Shown piece by piece: positions 8,665 to 62,929 of a stretch of 64,000 nucleotides of DNA. Within the stretch, counting starts at the first letter, position 1, and every line of letters starts with the position of its first letter. A program made the translations under genes and the position numbers. Source of the DNA: Hypomesus transpacificus. Lineage: Eukaryota; Chordata; Actinopteri; Osmeriformes; Osmeridae. The notes beneath the pieces were generated by a model that was not told the origin of the DNA, ran no database searches, and saw nothing but the letters and a program-made list of their open reading frames with translations. The stretch is from contig NC_061073.1 in assembly GCF_021917145.1 (NCBI RefSeq), positions 14,583,205 through 14,647,204 of the forward strand, read 5' to 3'.

Positions 8665-11600
8665 CTAGAAGTCCATGGACAAAGATCTGTGCTGAACCGT
8701 TTCATATTTCCCTCTTCCACTCCCACCTCTACGGACGTACAAATCACCTCTCCCGCCCTCTTCCTCCACCTCCATCTCCTCCTCCTCCATCACTCGATCC
8801 TGTCCACGATGGCCCAGCTCCGCCAGCCTACGGGTCCCCTTTTGATGGCAAGGCTTCATGCTGGGCCAGGACTTCTTCCGCAGGCTGCTGTTCCTGGTCA
8901 CGCTCCCCAGAGGGGGTAAGGAGCTCTGGAAGTCTCCCCGGAAGGGCGTTAGCTCCATGGATCCGGTCACCAGGGGAGGCGCCCCACGACTGAGGGAGCC
9001 CTGCGAGCCGCAGTGGTGCTCGTGGACGCAACGTGATGTTGTGGAGGAGCGTCTCAGAGCTTGTAGCGACAGGAGCTCCTCAGGCAGCTCCCCCATGTCC
9101 TCAGGCAGCTCCTAAGGAGAATCACATTTAGACAAAAGAACAATTTCAAGGGGGGCTGGACCTGTTGATGTTCACTTCTACTAATGCCACAAGAGCATGC
9201 ATGCAATGATGGCAGTACACTCAAACATTGGCTGTATTTCCAAAATAATGAAGCCTACAAAAGCGTTACAAAATTGATGGTGACGGAGCAAAAGCAACAG
9301 GTGAATTAATCCCACCCACCTTGTCTCTGAGGGAAAAGAGCTCGTAGTTAGGAGGGTCAAACACTTCCTGGTACTCAAGTCGGTTGAACGGGGTGCTCTT
9401 CTTCACCAACACCTTTACAATGGTAAGTTGTAGTCGTGTCAAACACAGCAACCCGACAGAGATGGAAGACGAGATGTGTGATTGTGTCGACGTGCTGTAC
9501 CTTCTTGCGTGGCTGCTTGACCTGCACCATGATGGAGAAGATGAGCAACAGCAGGACTACTCCTGTAGACACAGCAATCACTGTCCCGTGGGTCTTAGTG
9601 ATCTGGTGGAACAGACCTTTGGGTTTCTTTTCTGGAGGAGTGGAGATTGAGCAAGAGAGGTTGAAAAGATAAGAAAGAAAAGAAAGAAAGAATGAATTGA
9701 CATGTTGCAACCTGGAAAGAGCAGCACTTAGCAACTAAGGGGTTGGGTGTTCTTTCACAGCAGTTCACCTTTGCAGTTGCCCTCATCCCAGGGAAATACA
9801 CAGTTCTGCACACCATTACACACCAGAGAGTTGTTGATGCACATGTTGCTATGGCAGAAAAAAGTGTTGCTTGAACATGGAGCTGAAGGGAAAAGCAGAG
9901 ATGTCTAGTGTGTCAGAGGAACAAACAGATGCAGACACATTAAGCATCTTACAGAGAAAAAAGTTGACAAATGGTAAGAGGTAACACTGAAAACTGAGGC
10001 AAACATTTATTAACACTGCAGACAGTAATCAAACTGTACAATGTCTGTAGACTGACTGTAATGTTATTGGCAAACACTAGAGGGTGCAATAATGACATCC
10101 CATCACTGGGGATTCCAGATGAGGACAGAGGAAGAGATGTTTCCGAAGAAGGACAGACTCACGGTCCGAGAACGAGGTGAAGAGCATGCGGAAGCGGCTA
10201 AGTCTGCTGTTCTCGTCCGCCCACATCCTGACCACACCCACACCATTGTCCAGCATGATATCATTGGCTACTGTGCTGCAGAACTTGGCCTGTCAGGAAA
10301 AAGCTCAACTGTTCATCACAGTCACATGGTTCTCGGTCAGAGCTTGGTTTAGATACATGTGGTTCCCGGTCTGGCAGTCTCGTTGTCCTACCTTCAGGTC
10401 TTCGATGGCACTGCTTCCATCATAAACAGCCACAAAGTTCTTCTTACACTCGTTAGAGTTCTCCATCTGGTATTCTAGGAAGCGCAGGTAAATCTGGCAC
10501 AGAGAAAGGGAAAGCATGAGTTAGTAGAGTACCATAACATCATCACTGAAGGCTGAATCCAGTGCAGAGAGAGACAGGGATAAAGGGTGTCTGTTGAAAT
10601 CCCCTCTCGTTGCTCGTCGATCTGGTTGACATCACGTGTCGAGAGACCTTGTAGTTGGGCGGAGCTCGGATGGTCCAGATGCAGTCCACCGCCTGGTCAG
10701 GTTTCACCTTGTTCTCCTCCTCCACCTGACTGGAGCGGATCAGCCCATCGGCACCCCCAAGCTCAAACTGGCAGTCTAGGACACAGAGACACCGAGGGAG
10801 GGGCAAGGTTACGAAAGGTGGAGTTTTTTTTTTGTTCATGCGAAGGATACTGAACGCTTTCATCCAACATGTGAGAACAGAGTTTGTGTTACCTGGGATG
10901 GGATTTAAAATCCCTCCAACATGGAGATGGAACTCTGGGTCTAGGACGACGAGGAAGACATTAGAGACATTAGAGAAGGAAAAATGTCAGCCACTTGCTA
11001 AACAGGAACATGGCCTAACTGTGGTGTAAATGCCTTTCTCCTAAAGGAGCATCGTGTGTCTTTGTGATAAGGTACCAATGATGTAGTTGTACTGGACCCG
11101 AAAACCCTGGCCCTCCAACTCGTCATCACTGAAGAAGCGGATCCACATGAAGCGTCCGGTGGACAGGACCCGACCAGGGCTGGAGGAACCACAGAACCGG
11201 TTGATGAGTGGCGAGAAGCTGAAGGGGCCGTCTCTCACCTCAATGTGGTCAAAGCGGCACTCAAAGGATGACTCCATGAAGAAGGTGTCATCAAACTTTA
11301 GCTCAATCCTCTGACGTGGTAGGGCTGGGTAGGGGATACAATCACATAGGTACCAACGTTCCAACAATATGGATTATACTTGTCTTTTCATTTTGGGGGG
11401 ATGACGAGAGCAATACTGCATAGAAAAGTCTACAGACATTGCAGTCTAGGGATGTGTGTGTGTGTGTGTTTGTGCATGTGTGTATGAGAGAAATACCTTC
11501 CAGTATGTACATGCACTCCTTGTTGGGAGGATATGTGTTAGGGTAGTTTGGAGAGCTGAACATGCCTCCATCAGGGTTCTTGATCCAGGTGCCACATTGG

Positions 11601-36483: not shown

Positions 36484-39219
36484 ATGTCTGGTCATGCGTG
36501 TGCCCGCATCCTACACAGAACCACAAGATGCACACGGACACACTCTCCGCTGGTGGGTATCTTCTAAGAGAATAACATTTAAAATAGTACGATGAATATT
36601 TTCCGTAACTGAAGACAATATTTTTCCTCTTCCTGTAGTGTCACCATTATGGCCACTGCTTGCCATCCGCATCTTGGTGGCCTTTAGCCCAGACTATCTG
36701 CCTCTCCTCCAGGGCATGCTCCCATGTAGGACGCTTTGGCAGCCAAGGTTCTAGTCCCAGGTCCCTGGCTGGCTTTGACTTTCAAACTCAAAGGCTTCTC
36801 TCAACACGGCAGGATATGGATTTCCAGCACAACCGGGTCCAGATTAACAGCATTTTAAGAACCAATGAGCAGGTATCATATTTATGGGAAAAAAAAATCA
36901 TTCTATATGCTGCTACATGAACCTCAGCATTTTTTAATCTGTGATGTAATTTACCCTCAACCAAGACCAAACAAAAACTGTTCAGAACTGGTAGCAGTAT
37001 TTAAGTTCAGGTTTCAGTCACTGTTTATGGAGTCACATTTGACTGTGTTGCAGTCTGTGAGTGTCCCTGAGTTCGATGGGAGGGGTCTTAGCGCTGTGAG
37101 GAAGTTTGACAGCAACCAGCTGCCAGCCAACACGCCCAACGAGGACCGCCGCAGCACTGCCACCTGCCTACAGGTATGAGTCTCATCCTCAGATGGCTGA
37201 GCGGTTTGGGAATCTGGCTATTAATCAGAAGGTTGCCGGTTTGATTCCTGGCTGTGCAAAATGACGTTGTGTCCTTGGGCAAGGCACTTCACCCTACTTG
37301 CCTCGGGGGGGGGGGGGGGGGGGGGATGTCCCTGTACTTACTGTAAGTCGCTCTGGATAAGAGCGTCTGCTAAATGACAATGTAAATGTCCCCCAGCCCT
37401 CCTCCCCCTCATCCTGCCTCTCTCCATCCCATAAACACCCCTTTTGATGTCCCACATCCCCCTCCCCCTGAACTCAGTACATTGTTGAATCTGTGCCCCT
37501 CCCCCCCACACCTTCCCCAGACTAAAGGAATGCTGTTTGGAGTGTTTGACGGCCACGGGGGCTGGGCATGTGCCCAGGCGGTCAGCGAGCGGCTGCTGTA
37601 CTACGTGGCTGTAGCCATGATGTCTCAGCGTGGCCTGGAGGAGCTGGAGCGGTGTGTGGAGCAGGGCCAGCCCCTGCCTCCCATCCTGCAGTGGTACAAA
37701 CACCACAGCGACTACAACTACCGCGAGTCTGCCTCGCTCTACGTCGACCACCTCAGAGTCTTCTGGCAGGAGCTGCTGGACAGCGAGGAACACGGCGATG
37801 GCATGAGGTGTGTTGCTATCTTTCTCTCCCAAAAAAGTATGGTGTTGTGTAGTTCCATTATTGCTTCCCTTTTTTTTTTGGGGGGGGGGGGGCGGTTTGG
37901 AACATTTCAGTTGTTTTTCTTCCATGTAAAGTCTGCCCTTACCCCCCCCACCTTGTCCAGCCCCCCTGATGCCCTGGCCCATGCCTTCAAGCGCCTGGAC
38001 ACAGATATATCCCTGGAGGCCCAGGTCCCTTTATCCAGTGACCTCATGAGAAGCACAGCCATACAAGTACAGTACAGGCTACACATCGAAACCATGCTGA
38101 GACGTCGTTTCTTTTCGTCACACCATCCCATTCTGAAACCAATCTGTTCCGATCCATGTCTTCCTCCAGGTAGCGTTTGCTGGCTGCACTGCGTGTGTGG
38201 CTCACGTGGGGCCTGAGGGCATCCATGTGGCCAATGCGGGGGATTCCCGGGCAGTGCTGGGGGTGCAGGAGACGGACGGATCCTGGAGCGCACTGCCCCT
38301 ATCTTTTGACCACAACTCCCAGAACCAGTCTGAGATGAAGCGGATCCGGGCTAAACACCCCCCCTCAGAAAGGGACACGGTTGTCATGGACGACAGACTG
38401 CTGGGAGTAAGTCACTGATGCGTAGGAACACTGGACCCTGATATGTTGATTTCAAACTTTTTGATCATGCACCTAACATGTCTGTTGAGCCATTCTTTAT
38501 ACATGAATGTTATTTCTGCTCCTCAGGTCCTGATGCCCCTCCGTGCTTTTGGTGATGTCAGGTTTAAGTGGAGCCGTGAGCTGCAGCAGAACGTTCTAGA
38601 CAGCCTGGAGTCCGGAGTGGACCTGGACTCTCTCAACCTGTACCAGTACACCCCACCCAACTATCTTACCCCTCCTTACTTGGATGTTGCTCCTGAGCTG
38701 GTCTATCACAAGCTGCGGCCTCAGGACCGCTTTTTGATCCTGGGCTCTGACGGGCTGTGGGATGAAATGGGAAACGAGGAGGCGGTGCGCCTGGTCGGGG
38801 AACACCTGACTGGGATTCACCTACAGGTGAGGATTTGAAAGGGCCCGGAGCTGCCAAGTCAAGGTCTTAAATGAGGGAACTGTGTGTATTGAGTATGTAC
38901 AGAAATGCATGTGTTCACATACTGTTTTGTGTCTCCTTTCCAGGCTCCAATGTCTGCCAGCGAGAGGCAGCTGAACCTGGGCCGGATGCATGAGCTGCTG
39001 CAGAGACGGCTCGCTCGTGCCGACCCCTCTCCAGATCCCAACGCTGCCACACACCTCATCAGGCATGCCTTGGGCACGGGGGAGTATGGAGAGCTGAGCC
39101 AGGAGAGGCTGGCCGCCATGTTGGCACTACCGGAGGACCTGGCCCGCATGTACAGGGATGACATCACAGCCACTGTGGTGTACCTGAACTCTGACCTGAT
39201 CAAGACTCACCATAGTTAA
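36484..39219 (+). CDS. pdp2: PDP2, pyruvate dehydrogenase phosphatase catalytic subunit 2
   Basis: Mitochondrial matrix PP2C-type, Mg-dependent phosphatase that dephosphorylates and reactivates pyruvate dehydrogenase E1 alpha. Eight coding exons join in frame from ATG 36484 to TAA 39217-39219. The first two code a basic, Ser/Arg-rich mitochondrial leader. FDSNQLPANTPNEDRRS and MLFGVFDGHGGWACAQAVSE carry the PP2C metal motif (DGHGG). Later come HVANAGDSRAVLGVQE, RAFGDV, LILGSDGLWDEM with the second metal Asp, and NAATHLIRHALG. The C-terminal LPEDLARMYRDDITATVVYL agrees with PDP2 more than PDP1, as does DGHGG (DGHAG in PDP1). Catalytic Asp and Gly residues look intact. A SINE lies in the intron at 37190-37388. 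A 53-bp tandem duplication starts in the last codons and runs past the stop. Likely poly(A) signal AATAAA near 39923. Confidence 0.93.
37190..37388 (+). mobile_element. tRNA-derived SINE, near full length
   Basis: Begins agatggctgagcggtt (A box region), continues with ggttgccggtttgattcc (B box region), then ggcaaggcacttcaccctac, a run of some 20 G, tgtccctgtacttactgtaa and the tail cgctctggataagagcgtct. It lies in a PDP2 intron. Confidence 0.9.
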
Positions 39220-40275: not shown

Positions 40276-43200
40276 TCAGTCCTGGTCCTCCAGGCCCTCC
40301 CCGTTATACATGAGGGCCAGCCTGCTGAAGGGTGGCCCCCAGTGGGCCAGCCTCTGGTAGTCCTGCTCCTCCTCTGAGCTGCAGGAGTTGAGAGAGCTGA
40401 GGGAGCCCTCCTCCGAGGCCGCGCCCCCTCCCTCGTAGTTAAACACCAGGAGACAGTCGTAGGGCAGGACCGTGGGGTCCCCGTCTGTGGCACGTAGGTT
40501 CTAAGGAGAACAGAAGAGGTTCTGTTACAAGGTCTTGGGAGAACAGTGAGAGGTGGTGCAATACTATGAATAATGGAATCGGCTTCAGAAAATAAAACGT
40601 TGGATGTTTACATCATCAATGAACTCTCCGATGTCATGCTGGTCGGCAGGTCTGGGCCGGTAGGTGGGAGCACAAGAGAGGGGCGGGACCACAGTGATCA
40701 ACAAGGGCCGGTTAGAAAAACCACCGTGGAGCAGTCTGTGGTCATATTGCTTGTGGGGGGAAGAAATCAGAAAGGCAGCTGCAACATTACACTTGACCAT
40801 GGCGGATTCTTCTCTCATCCCCCTTCGTCTGACCAGGTCATCACCCCCACTCCCTTACCCAGCACCCCACCTCTCACCCCCCTCTCACCTGGTCCTCCTC
40901 CCCTCCCCCCTCCTCATCGTAGCAGTAAATGTTGCCCCTGACAGGGTTGTCCTCCTCCTGCAGCAAGACTGCTTTCTCCCCTGAACCACTCTTCCTCAGG
41001 AAAAGCAACAGCAACAACAGCAACACTGAGACACAGACCGTCACACACAGTCACATACACACACACCAGCTAAATAGTTCAATATTAACACTAAGGATTT
41101 TCGATTGTAACTAGCCGACTGAAGTAGAGAGGAGGATACTTGTTATTGTAAGTAGGTTGTTTTTATCACTCACAAAGCAAAGCCAAGACACCTCCCAAGA
41201 TCCACATGGCCTCACTCATGCCGAATTCGACCGACTTCTCAAAGCAAATGAGATCACTTCCTGTGCAATCACAAACCTACAGATACCACAAGTATCATTT
41301 TCCAACCAGTAAAGATTAGGATTTGACACAATTTGATTTTCCCGTCCCAAAGTAACAAATCTGGTGTGGGTTGAGAATGGTAGACCTGAGCTTGCAGCGA
41401 GATGTCCTGATAGAGACCAGCACTGTCACTAACACGTAGGTTCACCTCATGCTCCCCCATCCTCAGTCCAGTCCGCACACTCAGGAGGATGGCTGTCTCT
41501 ACAACACACCACAATGACATTGAGGAAAAACAGGCAGTAAAATAATCAATAAACATCAGACACGGATCAGTTTAAAAGACAAAGCACAGCTAATCCTTTC
41601 AAAACCATCCCGGTCTTACTGGAGTCATTCATGTGGATGTCCCAGTGTTTCAGGGAGTCTCCCAGCAGCTGAGCTGTGAAGGGCTGGGAGAAGCCTGGTC
41701 CATCTGGGTCTCTGATAGGGAGCTCTAGGGGCTGTGACTGGCTGCTGCAGAACACCACGTGTCTCTGGTCGACCGTTGGGACGTTGTCGTTCACATCCTC
41801 CACTTCAATCACCAGAGTCCCTGTGCCAGTGGCTGGGGCCTCCGCTGGGGGGCAGATGGCTGAGCGGTTAGGGAGTTGGGCTATTAGTCAGAAGACGTTG
41901 TGTCCTTATGCACGGCACTTCACTCTACTTGCCTCAAGGGGAATGTCCCTGTACTTACTGTAAGTCGCTCTGGATAAGAGCGTGTGCTAAATCACTAAAT
42001 GTAAATGTACATAAAAATACAGGGAGAGAGACAGGCAGTCAAGTGCAAGTGGATTGGAGACTTTTAACAGCTTAGATTGGGGTAAAACTGGTTTCTCAGG
42101 AATTAATCTATGACTGTACATTAAATTGTTAATTTGGAAAAACCTATCTCAGTTATTATACCATTGTCAATGGCCAGGATGAGGACAGTGTATTTGCCAT
42201 CAATGATAAACGGAGATTCTCTGTCCAGGGAACTTCTGACCACCAGCAGTCCTGTGCTGTCATTGAGACTCAACCAGCCAGCATGGTCACTCTCCAACTG
42301 ATACCTAGACACACGTACAGCAAACAACCCCTCACACATTTAATTAGATGATTCATATCAATACACTTTCCCCATGGACAATAACAATTTTTAGGTGGAG
42401 ATTGTGTCCCTACGAGTTTGCCTACGTGACGGTTTGATTCATGTCGAGGTCTGGGTCTGAGGCTGTGTAGAGCACCAGGTCACTGTCCAGTGGCAGGTCC
42501 TCAGACACAGAGACGACCATCTCTGAAGGCCTGAAGACCGGGGCCTCGTTCCTGTCCTCCACCCTCACCGTGACCGTAGCTGTGGAGGTGGACACAGGCC
42601 TGGAGAACACCACCTCGTTCTCCACCACCACCAGCAGAGTGTACAGAGGACAAGCCTCATAGTCCAGCTCCTGCAGGACAGGTGGGAGTGAAGGAAAGGA
42701 TCAATTGAACTTGAAGCGAATCTGTCTCAAGGCTTTTGATCCAGTTTGTTCTTAGTCCTGTGAGCACTGTGTCTTGTACATCCTAAGTAGCACCTTTGCT
42801 GTGGCGAGGATTCCCTGGTCCCCACTGGGCCCTGTGGAGATGCTGAAAAGGTGGTCACTGTCCCCTTGTATGATTCTGAATCTACTCCTCCAGCATGGGG
42901 TGTGGATCTGGTCCTCATCCCTTACCTCCATCTTGACCACTACCACCCCCATCTGGTTCTCTGAGATGGACCCAGTGTACTTGAACAGAGAGATAGAGAC
43001 AAAGTCATGTATTGATCCCGGCGGCACAGAAACAGAGACTTCAGTAAAACGTGTCAGGTGACGTTGAGAGGAGGTAGATCTTTCTCATTCTTACAGTGTT
43101 CTGGGTAAACTTTGGTGCGTTGTCATTGCTGTCTTCCACGGCGATCAGAACCTGGCTGGTGCTCGTCAGACCTGCCCCTGCGTTGTCTGCTGCCTCTACC

Positions 43201-48757: not shown

Positions 48758-51700
48758 ATGTCTGATGTTAGATTAAGACGTAATGAAATATGTTACGTGA
48801 CTTTACTTTTTTTCTTGAATGTACACACGGTGATAGGTGTGTGGCCAAAGCCACAAATTGTAGCCACATCGATGGAACAATATTCATTGAATCCAGGAAA
48901 CTTCAAATTTCAGTATGCTAGTAATTCAGCCGCCCAGTTGGGATGTTCAGTGCTGGATGCCGCCTTCAAACGATATTACTCGTTAATTTTTCCAGATTAC
49001 AATGCAGGTAGGCCTGCTGATCATTTCAATAAATCCTAATAACGTTATTTTACACAGACTGTTAGTATTGCGGAGCTACACAATGGTGACCTGTCGTTTT
49101 GTTCTCGGCATGGTGTTTGGCCTATAGGTACATCAATGGGCATTGTAGAGCATGCATGCATGGCATGTAAAGTCATTCAATCACCTGCTCCAGAAATCTT
49201 TTCTCAGTGAACTGCAACATGACTGCATGTTTGTAAATAACTGTCTCTTCTGTTTGGTATAGGGCCACGAGACAGACACCATCTTTTCGAAGCAAAACCA
49301 TATCTCCTTTATATCCATGTAACCCAGGGAGGCTGTGAGAGCTACCCAAATCCAGAGTCCTCAGAAAGTTGTAAGTGTTGAAAAACACTTTTCATTATTG
49401 GCCTACTTTTCAGCTTGTTGATTTGGGCCATTTCCTCTGCAATGACTGACATTACAGCCTTTACATTGGATCTGCATCTGGACCCTTCAGAGAGTTTACG
49501 ACAGCAACCAAGTAAAAATAACATTCTGGACACTCCACTGACTGCACTTGTAAATTACACTAAAAAGTTGTAACCTTTACCTTTAGTCTGTAAGCTTTAT
49601 GAACTCACTTCTTCAGAATGTGATTAGTTTACTTATTGAAACCTTCAGGCAGGTTATCATCTTTGAGTCTTACTGTACTTGGTCTCCTGTCCCAGATAAG
49701 CTGAATGTTTCTACAAACCAAGCAGAACTGAGGACAGAAACTGTGTGGGGGGCCCTGAGAGGTATTGTTTTTTAAATATGTTTACTGATACATCTGTCAT
49801 GACTATATAATACAATTTGTGACCATAATGCTGTTTTTGATTGACGCAGGGCTGGAAACCTTCAGCCAGCTGGTGTATCAGGATGACTTGGGTACAGTAA
49901 GTAATGCAGAATCATATTTTGGTAAATAGGTTTGGTTTGTTTGGAAATGTACAAATAAAGGTTTTTTGTTTCTTTTTAATTTATTTAGTACTTTGTGAAC
50001 AAGACTGAAATAGAGGATTTCCCCAGGTTTCAGTTCCGTGGGATACTGTTGGACACATCTCGTCACTATTTACCAGTAGAGGCCATCTTAAAGACACTGG
50101 TTCGTACTTCTGAAGACCACTATCAGACTGACTCATTGTGATTAGGGAGACTTACACTAATGGTCTGTTAATGTTGTCTTTGTTTAGGATGCCATGTCCT
50201 ACAGTAAGTTCAATGTGTTTCACTGGCACATTGTTGATGACCCTTCCTTCCCGTACCAGAGTCGTACCTTTTCTGACCTTAGCAACAAGGTTAGTTTACC
50301 TACCTTTAGTTTACCTAACCCTTCCACCTAGGTTAGAATAGGTTATAGGGTTGTAATGGGTTTTATGTGCATTTAGGGTTAGTATAGTGTACTATTTATT
50401 GCTATCTGTATATTTAGGAAGTTTCATTTATTTAAGCTCAGCATAGATGTAAATTATGTTCTGTGTACTTATATGTTATGTTATGCCAGGTGCTTGCGTT
50501 GTCTTGTCTTAAGAATTTCAGCGCCCAGTCTGACCTTGTGTTGTTCTGTGTACCTGACAAATAAAAGACTTGAACTTGAACTACCTTGTAATAATTGTGG
50601 GCTTCAAAAACCTGTATCAAGTGTTGTTAAATAACTAGTGTTTCACACCACCCTTCCCATTCCTAATCATCCACAGGGAAATGTCTGTAGTCAGTGTCTA
50701 TCAGTAAGGTGTACTGGTAGTCATGAACTGTTTAAACAGATTTTCATAATTTTGGTTTAGGGGGCTTTCCACCCAATGACTCATGTGTACACACAGACGG
50801 ATGTGAGGAGGGTGATCTCACACGCCAGACTACGGGGAATCAGAGTCTTGCCTGAGTTTGACTCACCAGGCCACACCCAGTCCTGGGGTAAAGGTAAAGT
50901 ACAACCTACAGTACAGTAAAATATCATATCTTTGATTAAATGTAATTACATGTAAATAAAAACTCCTCTTAAATCATGCATCTCAACAAAATAAAATGCT
51001 ACATCTTGTGAAAATGTAGTGCTTATAATGACTTGAATGTGACCTTTTCTGTTATTTCACCCACCACCCCTTGACCTCCCCCAGGTCAGCCTGGTCTCCT
51101 GACCCCCTGCTACAGGGGGATTACTCCTTCTGGAACATTCGGTCCAGTCAACCCAGCAACAGGCTCCACCTATAAGTTCATGACACGTTTGTTTAAGGAA
51201 GTGGCCTCTGTCTTTCCTGATTCTTACATTCACCTAGGAGGGGATGAGGTTGACTTCACCTGCTGGTAGGTTACGGTTTACTGTAGCATGATGTGTTTTG
51301 TATTACATTAGGTCTTCATGTTGGGCTGTTATTCGAAAATGTTTCCTATAGGAAATCCAACCCTGACGTCAGGCAGTTCATGCAGAAAATGGGTTTTGGA
51401 AATTATTTCACCAAACTAGAGTCCTTCTATATGGAGAAGTAAGTCACGGAGAACTATCTGAAAAACCTTTGGAATGTTTTCTAAATATAATGCTTTATAA
51501 ACAGTAGTATTTCATCGTTAGCCTAAATTGTTGAAAGGATGGGGTTGGACTACTGGCTTTTGGTTGGTTTTCCATGTCAAAACAGATTAAACATGTCATT
51601 TATTATCTACTGTCAAATAATGAGAAAAGGTTAGTAATAAAAGTAATGTGAAAATATTTCGGACGGATAACAAAACATCCATCCATGATCTCTCTCTAAA

Positions 51701-53581
51701 ATGTAGAAAGACATCCCTTATATGTGCCCTTATATGTGTGTATGACATTGTTTTACGTCTTGTGTTTCTAGCATCGTGAACATCACTTCAATGCTCAACA
51801 GGACAGCAATTGTTTGGCAAGATGTATTTGACCATCATGAAAGAGTAAGTATAAAGCCTAGTCCGACAAAAAAGCAATTCACGACCTGTGCTTTCTACAT
51901 AGGATGTTCCCCAAACCAGCTAGTTCTTATGACACAATTACATTTGGACCCCCTTGTATATTGTGACTGACAGCTGTAGTTATGTTTTATTTTGCATATT
52001 TGTGTCTTCTGACGGGTTGTTTTCCAGTGCAGCTCCCAGGCAGTGGTGGAGGTGTGGAAGGGGGGGTGTTACCTGTGTGATTTACGCAGGGTGACTAAAG
52101 CCGGACTGAGAGTGATCTTAGCCACTCCCTGGTATCTGGACCAACCAGGACCCACTCATGACTGGGCACGCTACTACACTGTGTGGCCTCTAGCCTTCAA
52201 GGGTCAGAACCTGGGTGCTCTGGAAATGTTGCAGTTTGAAGAAAAAAAAAATGTTTGCTGTGTTTTTGATATTCATGTTTCAGCTGAATCCAAAGGGTTA
52301 CTGAAGTCTTAGTTTGTCTTCTTAACACCCAGGGGTCTGTAACATTCCCAGAGATACAATCTCTTAACCACTAGGTGGCACAACACACTAGTCACAAATG
52401 CAATTCCAAATTTTAATGGGCCACCACATCCTTTCATTTTACTGTCCAAAATAGATTTTAAATACAGAGTCACGCTGTGAAATTGTACCACCAGTGTAAA
52501 CATTGCGGTAAGAAGCCAAGTGACTTCGAAACATGACAGCAGAGCAACACGCCCCCCAAAACACCCTTCCTGAGCTTTCCAACCAGTTGGAGCAGTGCAG
52601 AGGTGGACGCCATTTTATTTGTTACCCTGCTCAGATCCCTAAGGACACAGTTCTGCACATCTGGAAGGGCACCCCTGCCCAGTACCGGGAGGAGCTGAGC
52701 AGGATCACCAAGACTGGGCACGGGGTCCTGCTGGCTGCCCCCTGGTACCTTAACCACATCAGCTACGGCCAGGACTGGCACAGTGCCTACACCGTGCAGC
52801 CACTGAACTTCTCTGGTGTGTGTGCAGGGCCATGTTAACACTGACATATGTACTAGCTTTTTGCACAATATGCTGAAGCATGGCTTTTGTTTTGGAAACC
52901 CATCCCCCCCTGTAATACAGATCTTTAGGAATGGTATTGTATGAGTCACATGGATGTGCTGTGCTGTGCTATGCTGTGTTGTTTGCAGTCTGAGTGCTGG
53001 TTCTAGTGTGTTCTTCCCCCGCTCTCATCATGAGATTGTGTTTACTTCCCTCTCACAGGGACTGAAGAGCAGAAGAAGCTTGTGATTGGTGGAGAGGTCT
53101 GCATGTGGGGGGAATACGTAGACGCAACCAACCTCTCTCCACGCCTGTGGTAATGAAGAGTTAAGAAAATAAATAGAAATCCCTTACATTTCAGGCATTC
53201 ATTCCCATTAATGTTTTTGTTGTGTGTTTGTGTTGCGCAGGCCCAGGGCCAGTGCTGCAGCAGAGAGACTGTGGAGTGATGAGAAGCAGACCTCCAGTGT
53301 CACCCTGGCCTTCCCTCGTCTGAAGGAGTTCCGCTGCATGCTGTTACGGTAAGGCTGCTTGAGTTGCGGTTCATACGGCTGCGCAATGTTTTGATTGTGA
53401 CCATTGCTAACGTCGAGCTGACATAAATTGTTTGTCACCTGTTATCTTTGTCCCCCGTCTAATGTCTCCCAAGGCTTCTACCCCTGCTTTACGCTTTCAA
53501 TATTTCTCTCTTTTGAGGCGCGGTGTCCAGGCCGAGCCTTTGTTTGTTGGCCACTGCAGGCATGAGTACCAGGGTGTGTGA
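48758..53581 (+). CDS. hexa: HEXA, lysosomal beta-hexosaminidase subunit with two alternative active-site exons
   Basis: GH20 enzyme that removes terminal GlcNAc or GalNAc, including from GM2 ganglioside, in lysosomes. The start at 48758 gives a signal peptide ([15 protein letters not shown]) and then WPKPQ, as in human HEXA. Conserved parts follow: [38 protein letters not shown] (substrate Arg), [30 protein letters not shown], and [13 protein letters not shown] with the catalytic Asp-Glu pair. The [16 protein letters not shown] loop is closer to the alpha ([13 protein letters not shown]) than the beta subunit, and position next to NR2E3 also points to HEXA. The end [21 protein letters not shown] and [14 protein letters not shown] precede TGA at 53579-53581. 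The exon with the WYL active-site loop exists twice (52028-52202 and 52635-52815). AATAAA near 53919. All catalytic residues I can check are intact. Confidence 0.9.
50325..50581 (+). mobile_element. LINE-like 3' end, plus orientation
   Basis: Same sequence as 4087-4393, opposite strand, ending acaaataaaagacttgaact then tgaac. It lies in a HEXA intron. Confidence 0.6.
52028..52202 (+). other. hexa: HEXA alternative exon A (WYLD type)
   Basis: Acceptor tttccag, donor AAGG|gtcaga; 175 bases, phase 0 in and phase 1 out. Codes [32 protein letters not shown] and [20 protein letters not shown]. It keeps the substrate Trp (VEVW) and the WYL motif, with Asp after it as in the beta subunit. Confidence 0.85.
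52635..52815 (+). other. hexa: HEXA alternative exon B (WYLN type)
   Basis: Acceptor accctgctcag, donor TCTG|gtgtgt; 181 bases, phase 0 in and phase 1 out, so interchangeable with exon A. Codes [40 protein letters not shown] and [24 protein letters not shown] with ISYGxDW is the alpha-subunit form. Confidence 0.85.
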
Positions 53582-57144: not shown

Positions 57145-59486
57145 ATGATGGATAAACACCTGCCGAAGATAACCATGCGCCCCTCTATCGTGGACTCTTC
57201 AGGACAATCCACTTCGGACAACACTCAACCAGGCAAGCCACTAAAATACAAAAAGAAAATAGGGACCTAAAGATTAGACGTTCTGTACACGAGTACCAAT
57301 AATCGGATTTTCATCACGTCTAAATCATACCTTGTAAATAGGTTGAGTCAATACCATGTGACCGGGTCATGAACAGATATCATAATGTAAAGATTGTGCT
57401 TTGTGTCGACAGCAAGAAGTCCAGTTCCAGGGAAAGCCCTGGGCCTAGGCCTGTTGTGTAAAGTGTGTTCTGACACAAGCAGCGGGAAACACTACGGCAT
57501 ATATGCCTGCAACGGCTGCAGTGGCTTCTTCAAGCGGAGTGTCAGGCGCAGGCTCATCTACAGGTGAGGACGATCCATAACACGGCCTTTTTTTTCTCTG
57601 TGAAAATCCTCACGTAATCCATGTAATTAAGTCTTTAGAAATGTTAACACTTTTGAATGGTTGCCTCACAGGTGTCAAGCAGGCACAGGCATGTGTCCTG
57701 TCGACAGGGCCCATCGCAACCAGTGTCAAGCATGTCGACTGAAGAGATGCCTCCAAGCTGGCATGAACAAAGATGGTGAAGAAAGGCAAAAACAAAAAAA
57801 TCAACCAGCCGCATGTCAAAATAGATGTTACCTGGGAGATCCCATGTTACCATGTTAGACAATACAAGAGTGGGTCAGATGGCTGGGTGGTTAGGGAACC
57901 GGGCCACCAATCATAAGGTTCGATTCGATTCCGGTCAATCATTCCGGTTCGATTCCCAGACCGTGCAAAAATGTCGTTGTGTCCCTGGACAAGGCACTTC
58001 AACCTACTTGCCTCGGGGGGGGAATGTCCCTGTACTTACTGTAAATCGCTGTGGATAAGAGCGTCTGCTAAATGACTAAATATAATGTAAATATAATAAT
58101 CATCAGTGTTCCCTTTGTGACTTCCTCTGTTTGTGTCTCCTCCTCAGCCGTGCAGAACGAGAGGCAACCCCGCAGCACGGCCCAGGTGCAGCCAGACACC
58201 ATGGACGTGGAGGCAGATACGGAGCACCTGGCCACCACGCGGTTGCCCACCCCTTCCTCCACCTTCTCTGTCATCAGCAGACAGCCCATCAGTTCCTCGG
58301 TCACGCCCCCAGCCCCGGCCCAGCACTGCGGCGGCAACGGCAGCCCCAAGAACAGTCACCGCTTCATGGTCAGCCTGATGACCGCAGAGACGTGTGCTAA
58401 ACTAGAGCCAGAGGACGGTAAGAGCTGGGGGAGAATTTGATCACCGCACATACGATATGCAACAGAATGTTATACAATACAGCAGCAATCTGAACTGATC
58501 TGATGTCTTCCGTCTTGCAGTGGATGAGAACATTGACGTGACGAGTGACGAACCAGAGAGGGAGAGAACTCCCTCCGACTATCACTCATCTCCTTACAGC
58601 TCCAGCGGCTCTGAGAGCGTGTATGAGACATCAGCACGCCTGCTCTTCATGTCAGTCAAGTGGGCAAAGAACCTGCCTGTCTTCTCTCACCTACCATTCA
58701 GAGACCAGGTACAACTCCTCATTTGAAATGGCCATATTTCATATCTGAAAAAGCCCGTGGGATGAGATCGGTGAAACTAATATTGGTTCTGTTTGAACAG
58801 GTGATTCTGCTGGAAGAGGCCTGGAATGAGCTCTTTCTCCTGTGTGCCATCCAGTGGTCTCTGCCCCTGGACAGGTGCCCTCTGCTTTCCCTCCCAGACC
58901 TCTCCCCCACACAGCAATCCAAGGGCAGCCTCCCCACAGGCAACTTGAGAGTCTTGGAGGAAGTCTTCAACCGCTTCAAGGCTCTGGCTGTCGACCCTAC
59001 TGAGTTTGCCTGCCTCAAGGCTGTTGTACTGTTCAAACCAGGTGGGTCAGTCTGTCTCATACTTACAATGATTCAAGTGGGTCTCCGCACACATGGCCTT
59101 GATGTCTGATGTTTGATGTCTCTCTCAATGGAGTAGACACCCGTGGACTCAAAGATCCTGAGCAGGTGGAGAATCTTCAGGACCAGTCTCAGGTGATGCT
59201 TGGTCAGCATATTCACTCTCTGTACCCCAGCCAGAGTGCCAGGTGAGCCCAGTTAATATATATATAATTATATATACATATATATATATACATATATGTG
59301 AAATATGGTGAAAGGTATGTGCTATTAGTTAATTATCTTCATTACCTGTTTAGGTTCGGGAAACTTCTTCTTCTTCTGCCCTCTCTACACTTCGTGAGCT
59401 CGGAAAGGATAGAACAGCTGTTCTTCCACAAGACCATCGGGAACACACCCATGGAGAAGCTACTGTGTGATATGTTCAAAAACTGA
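57145..59486 (+). CDS. nr2e3: NR2E3, photoreceptor-specific nuclear receptor
   Basis: Retinal transcription factor that represses cone and supports rod genes together with CRX and NRL. Exon 1 (57145-57232) codes [20 protein letters not shown] and ends at a likely GC donor (CCAG|gcaagc); it joins in frame to the DNA-binding exon (57413-57563). That and the next exon hold both zinc fingers: [20 protein letters not shown] with P-box [10 protein letters not shown], then [20 protein letters not shown] and [25 protein letters not shown] follows exactly as in human. The ligand-binding part starts [12 protein letters not shown] and has [78 protein letters not shown] and ends [17 protein letters not shown] with TGA at 59484-59486. 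The [10 protein letters not shown] helix 12 is intact. A SINE lies in the intron at 57877-58093. Confidence 0.95.
57877..58093 (+). mobile_element. tRNA-derived SINE with duplicated B-box region
   Basis: agatggctgggtggttaggg, then ggttcgattcgattccggtc followed by a second attccggttcgattccc, then the shared body and tail. The second B-box-like unit is extra compared with other copies. Confidence 0.88.
59258..59302 (+). repeat. (TA)n-rich repeat in NR2E3 intron
   Basis: tatatataattatatatacatatatata-type sequence in the last intron. Confidence 0.9.
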
Positions 59487-60728: not shown

Positions 60729-62929
60729 ATGTTCAATAAATCGTCCTCTGGATATCGGTATGAGTCTCTTCTACAGAGAGACTTGGTTTCCAGCACTGGC
60801 TTATTTGTGGATCCAGAGAACTTTGGGCAAAAACAGTTCATTCATAAAGGACATTCATTTGATTACATCCCTAAAGTCAGCGATAACAACTACACTGGTA
60901 AGTGAGCTACAGCATCCTTGATGCTGAGAAAGCCTGTAGCATATACAGGGCTAAATGACAGGGCTAGCTTGAGTTAGCCAGCTACGCAGTGATCCTTCTC
61001 TGTGGATGGATCAGAATATTTACTATGTAACTAGGTAACGTGATTGTGAGGGGAGACGAGACACATTAACGTTATAGCCTAGTGGTATTAACACGAACAA
61101 CATTTTTCTTTCCTAGACACTTCTCAAGGATGCGTCTCCTGGATTTGTAACCTGATTGTCACCTTCTTGGTTTATATCTGTATCTTCCTCACCTTCCCTA
61201 TATCTGGATGGTTTGTTTTGAAAGTAGGTCGCCTTCACATAAAAAATCTTCCTCTTCAGATATTTCCATGCAAACATTGTGAATGGTTTGTGAACTGTCT
61301 GATGGATTCATCATTTGTAAAAGAGAGATGTATTGTGTGGCAGGCAGTGCCTAACTACCAGAGGGTAGTGGTGTTCCGTCTGGGTCGAGTACGTCCTCCG
61401 AAAGGTCCTGGAATAGTCCTGGTGCTGCCTCTCATAGACCAGTGGCAGAGGGTGGATCTACGCACCCGAGCCTTCAACATCCCTCCCTGTACTGTAAGCA
61501 ACACTCATAGCACAGTCCCGTCATCAAATTCTCTCCCCGAGGGCTTGGAGTCAAATTCACATACGTGAATTGCATCAGATTTATAGTTTTACGGGAGAGC
61601 CAAAACCGGTTTTGCAACGCCCCACTTTTACAGTTACGCCTTTTTAATTTTCTTTTAATTAATGTAAATTCACTTGTGTCTTTTTGGCACTGAAAATATC
61701 GAATTGAGAGCTTTCATTTGATATACTGTATAATACTCCTATTTGCCCAACATGGCACTTGCACCCCAGTGGCTCCAAGCCATAACTGTGGCTGCATCTA
61801 AGCAAGGAAATAAAATCACTGATTTTGCGAGCCTCTCCTCCTCTGTGCCAGGTAACCACTCAGGATGGGGGTCTGGTGTCCGTCGGAGCAGACATCCAGT
61901 TCAGGATCTGGAGCCCAGTCATGTCAGTGGTGGCAGTGCAGGACCTGAATGCCTCAACACGGCTCACTGCACAGAACGCCATGACCCACTGCCTCGGTAA
62001 GAAGACTGTGAGAGAGATCCACACTGAGAGAATCAAACTGGGGGAGTACCTTGGGGTGAGTGCCTTTCAAGATCTGCTTGAGCGTCAATTTATATTCTGA
62101 CAAAGACACAAACACATTACTTTTTAGCACTGCTAGAGGTCCTTACTTCCTGGTTGTAGATGGACATCAATGAGATGACTCGCCCCTGGGGGCTGGAGGT
62201 GGACAGGGTGGAGCTGATGGTGGGGGCTGTGCTGAAAGCCCCAGAAGACTGCCCAGGACAGTTCATCATGCCTCCGTCTGTGCCTGGCCTGGAGGGCCTT
62301 GCTGGCCCCATCCAGCAGCTAGCTATGCACTTCCTGGGTAAAAGTGAAATCCAGACAAACAAAGGTAATTCGCACTTTCACCTCCTGTCCTGTTTGGCTT
62401 TGATCCCGTGTTGTTTTTGATCGTCTGTCTGTGCGTTGTCAGAAGACACAGTGAGCCTTACAGATGAGCTGAGCGTGGCTCCCCAGGCTGCGGCCAGGCC
62501 TGCTTCAGTGGAGGAGCTCCTCGGAGTGGTGAAATTGTTCCTGTCAGAGTCCCTGGTCAGCCAGGTGGGGGCCTGCTTCCAGTTTCACATCAGCTCCGCA
62601 GATGGACAGGACAGTGTCTGCTACGTGGATCTGAGCCAAGGTATTGGCTGCTTGTGGCTGCAGGAAATGTATTTAGAAGCGTGAGTAAACTGTGCAGCCC
62701 GGTGAATATTGCATGTCTGTCTTTGTGTTTAGGCGGTGGCTCGGCTGGGACAGGACTCCCAGATCAGAAGGCTGACGTCACACTCAGTATGAGTGACGAG
62801 GACCTGCTGGCCATGTTTGAGGGCAGCTTGCGTCCCTACGCTGCCTACACCAGTAGAAGACTCAAGGTCCAGGGGGAGCTGAAAACGGCCATGAAGTTGG
62901 AGGGCCTTATTAAACTACTTAGGAAATAA
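60729..62929 (+). CDS. stoml1: STOML1, stomatin-like protein 1 (SPFH plus SCP2 domain)
   Basis: Late endosome/lysosome membrane protein that joins a stomatin (SPFH) domain to a sterol carrier (SCP2) domain. Seven exons join in frame from ATG 60729 to TAA 62927-62929. The N-terminus SSGYRYESLL has a YxxL-type sorting motif, where human has GYRAL. A hydrophobic hairpin follows (NLIVTFLVYICIFLTFPISG), then SPFH: YQRVVVFRLGRVRPPKGPG, LPLIDQWQRVDLRTRAFNIP, LVSVGADIQFRIWSPV, LNASTRLTAQNAMT and INEMTRPWGLEVDRVEL. After an acidic linker comes SCP2: FLSESLVSQVGACFQFHISS, SVCYVDLSQG and LKVQGELKTAMKLEGLIKLL. Length and order match the vertebrate family. It is followed 850 bases on by a CYP11A1-like gene. 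AATAAA near 63166. Confidence 0.94.

Follow-up and report, generated by a model that had tools for sequence, protein, structure and literature searches.

Tandem D-type and N-type copies of an active-site exon in HEXA of Hypomesus transpacificus, with a parallel array in HEXB, predict alternative splicing of the substrate pocket

The HEXA gene in the 64,000 nucleotides of Hypomesus transpacificus DNA analysed here (the window) carries two tandem copies of an exon that encodes part of the active-site pocket, and HEXB of the same genome carries three copies of the same exon. The best explanation, to which we would give a probability of about 0.6, is that these are alternative exons that switch the pocket in both genes, that the exon pair is older than the HEXA/HEXB split, and that mammals have kept the N-type residue in HEXA and the D-type residue in HEXB. 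The finding is larger than was first claimed, since both Hex genes have this exon in tandem copies and since the exon carries determinants of the specificities of the alpha and beta subunits. HEXA encodes the enzyme missing in Tay-Sachs disease, and the division of charged and neutral substrates between HEXA and HEXB underlies Tay-Sachs and Sandhoff disease.

An intact HEXA-type gene occupies positions 48758-53581 on the plus strand, with 14 coding exons in each message that takes one copy of the alternative exon 11. Coding exon 1 (48758-49007), placed by the spliced frame and tblastn, has the start codon and, by eye, an apparent signal peptide. The spliced frame also gives exons 2 (49263-49370), 3 (49696-49761), 4 (49850-49896), 6 (50188-50289), 7 (50761-50893), 9 (51352-51438) and 13 (53241-53348). 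The active-site Arg lies in exon 5 (49989-50099, motif DTSRHYLP). Exon 8 (51085-51265) is catalytic and includes the stretch at the position of the human alpha GSEP loop, a loop reported to have a confirmed role in binding the GM2-activator complex (PMC3587417). Exon 10 (51772-51844) ends in HHER in phase 0, exon 12 (53059-53149) completes a G/GG codon and encodes WGEYVD, and exon 14 (53518-53581) holds the stop codon. A further in-frame segment of 54 nt between exons 2 and 3 (49458-49511) was considered as an extra exon and left out; its acceptor is the weakest of all (-4.18), it has no counterpart in human HEXA, and the protein without it fits human HEXA better, while the frames are unaffected by its omission. 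The copy-1 isoform was assigned a GH20 catalytic domain by Pfam (in a query that held the 18 extra residues of 49458-49511). Outside the alternative exon the protein is identical to human HEXA at 274 of 440 positions and to human HEXB at 242 of 438, making it an orthologue of the alpha subunit.

Several other features were observed in the window. Downstream of HEXA, Pfam identified an exon with a nuclear-receptor ligand-binding domain (58627-59106), which resembles NR2E3, and one with an SPFH/Band 7 domain (61092-61565), presumably from a stomatin-like gene. Exons with a CUB domain (11044-11373, minus strand) and a PP2C phosphatase domain (38419-38835, plus strand) were also found by Pfam, and an exon with a cadherin-like domain (42755-43084, minus strand) scored just under the cut-off. 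Between 28000 and 30000 there are long low-complexity CT/GA arrays with Ser-Leu-rich or Arg-Glu-rich open frames on both strands, which are probably not genes.

The coordinates, phases and lengths given for the duplicated exon in the original prediction proved correct. Copy 1 (52028-52202, plus strand, 175 nt) consists of 58 codons plus one nucleotide and has the D-type motif WYLDQPGPT and the donor AGG/GTCAGA. Copy 2 (52635-52815, plus strand, 181 nt) consists of 60 codons plus one nucleotide and has the N-type motif WYLNHISYG and the donor CTG/GTGTGT. Both enter in phase 0 and leave in phase 1, and 432 nt lie between them. Joined to the rest of the gene's exons (13 coding exons), copy 1 gives a product of 531 aa and copy 2 one of 533 aa, in each case through an uninterrupted frame that closes at the same stop codon, the only stop it contains. 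Use of both copies or of neither breaks the frame, as had been claimed, and leads to an early stop. With both joined, the stop falls at coding nucleotide 1339, no more than 8 nt into copy 2, and the last junction follows 374 nt later; with neither, it falls after 394 codons. A tblastn search of the window with both isoforms (E up to 1) found no other duplicated exon and no third copy in HEXA.

The two copies agree at 25 of 58 aligned residues and at 53% of nucleotides. By the method of Nei and Gojobori (NG86), dN/dS between them is 0.58/1.91, a ratio of 0.29-0.30, and dS exceeded dN in all of 300 codon bootstraps, which upholds the earlier view that both copies look selected. Of the 22 codons common to both copies (Met and Trp excluded), 14 differ synonymously. 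In a neutral simulation at equal DNA divergence none of 20,000 runs kept 25 residues (mean 14.7) and 11% of runs stayed free of stops. Taken with the bootstraps, the simulation indicates that selection on the protein has acted on both HEXA copies during at least some of their history. Extended to the ten pairs that can be formed from the fish copies of both genes, dS exceeded dN in 273-300 of 300 bootstraps, the weakest pair being HEXB copies 1 and 2. Third-position GC in copy 2 (0.83) is the highest of the HEXA exons compared (the next being 0.69); that of copy 1 is 0.64. Two HEXA isoforms and mutually exclusive splicing are plausible predictions. Structurally there is a strong case for alternative use: the copies are interchangeable in frame, the frame bars the use of both or neither, and both are constrained as protein sequence. 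The case is made considerably stronger by HEXB of the same genome, which has the same exon lengths, phases and frame logic in three copies.

These HEXB copies came from a search of the fish's own genome (437 Mb) with copy 2, which gave five matches, two of them the HEXA copies themselves and the other three on a single further contig. The latter belong to an intact, single HEXB gene on the minus strand (G000:C22, about 2777367-2784934, loci L048 and L049), in which the copies lie approximately 1 kb apart. Outside the exon its product is identical to human HEXB at 292 of 438 positions and to human HEXA at 259 of 440. Copies 1 (WYLDYISIG) and 2 (WYLDWISYG) are D-type, each 175 nt long and with the donor GTCAGT, and copy 3 (WYLNRIAYG) is N-type, 181 nt long and with the donor GTGTGT; all three run from phase 0 to phase 1 on the minus strand. 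Each copy alone leaves the frame open, and the five other combinations (none, 1+2, 2+3, 1+3 and all three) lead to an early stop. Copies 1 and 2 share 83% DNA identity and have upstream intron sequence in common, and so represent a younger duplication. The tandem layout is therefore found in both paralogues, as D, N in HEXA and as D, D, N in HEXB, with D-type upstream and N-type downstream.

The duplicated exon corresponds to the segment of human HEXA that holds W392, Y421, N423 and R424 (the numbering was checked), four of the 11 residues that have been assigned to the active site of the alpha subunit (PMC3377590). The action of the alpha subunit on charged substrates has been ascribed primarily to N423-R424, as against D452-L453 in the beta subunit (PMC3587417). 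According to the same source the alpha IPV loop, which also lies in this segment, is not encoded by beta, and its importance for activator binding was unconfirmed by experiment. HEXA copy 2 encodes N-H and a two-residue loop insert, whereas copy 1 encodes D-Q with no insert. The full alpha pair is thus found in neither HEXA copy, as N is present in copy 2 only and R in neither; N-R is encoded by HEXB copy 3, which places the human alpha pair inside a beta gene. D at the position of D452 together with the lack of the insert is seen in HEXA copy 1 and in HEXB copies 1 and 2. When the copies with a few flanking residues were compared with PDB sequences by phmmer, copy 1 scored 55.4 bits against human HEXB (1nou_A, E = 4e-14) and 46.7 bits against human HEXA (2gjx_A, E = 2e-11), while copy 2 scored 66.3 and 67.0 bits, respectively. 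On these scores and residues copy 1 is beta-like in sequence, and copy 2 is near-equal overall and alpha-like at the N and the insert. Fish HEXB also departs from human HEXB outside the exon: its exon 8 encodes GSSPSGTF, against RQNKLDSF in human beta and GSEPSGTF in human alpha, so that by sequence the GM2-activator loop of this beta gene is alpha-like. A search of bacteria for GH20 outgroups found 42 loci, of which two were dropped and 40 had a usable frame; at the D452 column 39 of these have D and one has N, and D is therefore probably the ancestral residue at this position. The column of Tyr456 was poorly aligned in this set and was not used.

According to the preferred explanation, with its pocket-switching exons, each mRNA would take one copy of exon 11, any other choice ruining the frame. 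Inclusion of copy 2 would give an alpha-type pocket that accepts charged substrates and inclusion of copy 1 a beta-like pocket, and the N-type isoform is predicted to act better on sulfated or sialylated substrates than the D-type isoform. The AG exclusion zones of 28-48 nt and the lengths of the introns between copies (432 nt in HEXA, 843 and 932 nt in HEXB) argue against exclusion by steric hindrance or by a distant branch point. Because these introns are long for simple steric exclusion, regulatory factors would probably make the choice, and the loss of messages with a shifted frame would be a second safeguard; the type-specific donors suggest that the choice may act on the 5' splice site. 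A search for RNA pairing between introns that might serve for exclusion gave three inverted repeats of 12-21 nt within 51845-53058 (a raw count, uncorrected for chance); one of these, 18 nt long with 83% complementarity, has its arms at 52374-52391 and 53003-53020, on the two sides of copy 2. The pair would have arisen before HEXA and HEXB separated, with mammals later retaining one type per gene, N in HEXA and D in HEXB.

The state of copy 1 bears most directly on whether both HEXA exons are in use. Splice sites were scored with a weight matrix, and the ranks given are among the 14 sites of HEXA. The original prediction credited each copy with a good acceptor and donor, which is generous for copy 1 (donor 0.50 and acceptor 0.63, against 3.53 and 4.77 for copy 2), whose acceptor is the second weakest and whose donor is the fourth weakest. 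Copy 1 is also the longest branch in a tree of seven sequences (the five fish copies, human alpha and human beta). Of the 17 residues on which the other six agree throughout, copy 1 has retained 13 and departs from them at columns 4 (T), 20 (E), 42 (I) and 45 (G); each of those six loses between none and two of its own corresponding invariant columns. Copy 1 also lacks the dimer-contact residue Tyr456. All this would fit a decaying relic, with only copy 2 now used and with either a loss too recent to have closed the frame or a remaining role for copy 1 solely as a frame-breaking regulatory exon. Such a relic would nevertheless have to have kept its correct phases and a frame free of stops, as well as W, PWYL, D and DW, and in the comparison of copy 1 with every other copy dS exceeded dN in 288-300 of 300 bootstraps; the synonymous differences from copy 2 noted above also speak against decay. 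We regard the relic as an unlikely explanation. A different fate for copy 1 is suggested by the position of Tyr456, a residue reported to take part in the dimer contact (PMC2492878) and, in human Hex, to form part of the active site of the partner subunit (PMC4449183). HEXA copy 1 has P at this position, HEXB copy 1 has I and HEXB copy 2 has Y, and isoforms with either of the first two may therefore pair or act differently. They might even be used not as ordinary hydrolases but to modify or silence the dimer of which they are part. This is a little less likely still, as both exons retain the residues W, Y and D of their own pocket, and as the tyrosine has been reported to be replaced in fungi and in insects, with dimers and activity shown in the latter (PMC2492878). 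It is extremely improbable that the second exon comes from faulty assembly or belongs to a neighbouring gene that was collapsed into this one. Nothing was found in favour of this, the copies lie 432 nt apart and differ at 47% of nucleotides, no other exon of the gene is duplicated, and the layout recurs in HEXB on another contig.

The age of the duplication has to be weighed separately. An independent origin in HEXA and HEXB, with the D and N types reached by convergence, would require the same exon, the D-then-N order, the lengths of 175 and 181 nt, the diagnostic D or N and the matching type-specific donors to have come about twice. In the seven-sequence comparison, with a splitting column defined as one in which one side is invariant and the other lacks that residue, four columns (6, 32, 40 and 51) separate the N-type (two fish copies and human alpha) from the D-type (three fish copies and human beta), the most for any of the 35 possible three-against-four splits; three columns each support the split by gene (0, 26, 53) and the one that sets the three HEXB copies apart (12, 29, 31). 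The loop insert is a further difference between the types. A donor of GTCAG is present in all three D-type copies, which are not three independent cases as HEXB copies 1 and 2 are sisters, and in one of the 24 other donors of HEXA and HEXB (the segment 49458-49511 left out); GTGTGT is present in both N-type copies, and GTGTG in none of the same 24. The best tree places the N-type copies with human alpha with low bootstrap values (46-48%). Of 100 alignments generated on the gene-by-gene tree, three preferred the type tree at least as strongly as the true alignment does; of 100 generated on the type tree, 20 preferred it as weakly as the true alignment or even less. On the other side, the gene-by-gene tree survives the AU test (p = 0.33), and the parsimony gap is only two steps (128 against 130). 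Nucleotide sites of the fish copies group by gene (8-9) more often than by type (4-6) or crosswise (2-3), amino-acid sites are approximately even (3-4 by gene, 3 by type), and HEXB copy 3 has its nearest DNA neighbour in HEXB copy 2 (0.70, against 0.63 for HEXA copy 2). Conversion within each gene could account for the sites that group by gene. An origin of HEXA copy 1 by transfer from HEXB was also considered, and the AU test cannot separate it from the other topologies (p = 0.44). The evidence for an ancient origin is thus mixed, in that residues and donors favour it, the AU test is undecided and the fish DNA sites lean the opposite way. We only moderately favour one ancient duplication followed by conversion within genes, and see two separate duplications as the less probable course, though one to be taken slightly more seriously than a relic copy 1.

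A wider proposal, that a single ancestral gene first encoded the two specificities of vertebrate beta-hexosaminidase, alpha and beta, in a pair of alternative exons, that both daughter genes kept both exons, that mammals reached their present state by reciprocal exon loss and that in such fish HEXB alone may make both types of active site, is put forward tentatively, as something we would rate at slightly under an even chance. If it is true that the split began as alternative splicing, it would provide a clean case of two isoforms becoming two genes. It also bears on fish models of these diseases, where the removal of HEXA may be masked if HEXB can form a pocket of the alpha type. A HEXB that naturally combines N-R with a GSEP-like loop offers a precedent for the hybrid subunits engineered for therapy.

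No report of this exon duplication was found in the part of the literature searched. The vertebrate Hex genes have been described as universally having 14 exons, in a sample that includes zebrafish, fugu and Tetraodon (PMC2492878); that survey used the longest predicted isoform, and alternative exons of this kind could for this reason have escaped it. In a study of a reef fish hexb was among 21 genes differentially spliced in one heatwave period, with the type of event and the exon unstated in the part available (PMC8933327), and this is only a lead for alternative use of the exon. Among viral contigs, 94 stretches matched the search pattern and none was a relative. The event itself belongs to a known class, as 236 tandem duplicated exon substitutions have been reported for human genes in GENCODE v40 (PMC9741552); HEXA and HEXB are absent from the main text of that paper and from that of a survey of human mutually exclusive exons (PMC5740500).

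Exons 4a and 4b of OGDH are likewise a tandem, mutually exclusive pair that tunes a metabolic enzyme, and in human OGDH the branch points have been located 25-41 nt from the 5' splice site (PMC7969005). This mechanism is not indicated in fish HEXA or HEXB, given the AG exclusion zones and intron lengths described above. Another likeness is seen in modified Hex B, in which the human beta subunit was engineered with D452N, L453R and the replacement of RQNK312-315 by GSEP (PMC3243693). Fish HEXB spliced with copy 3 would be similar, having an N-R pocket and a GSSP loop, with the difference that the fish version is natural and, as predicted from sequence, would be chosen by exon. The engineered hybrid H1 cleaved MUGS but failed in activator-dependent assays on GM2 with human activator (PMC3587417), and since beta subunits with N-R and GSEP cut the one substrate and not the other, the pocket residues alone may not suffice for cleavage of GM2. 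A further comparison is with the human genes themselves. Human HEXA and HEXB differ in the same segment, with the same catalytic residues and the same distinction between D and N as the fish copies, but in humans the two versions of the exon reside in two genes, whereas in the fish both types are present in each.
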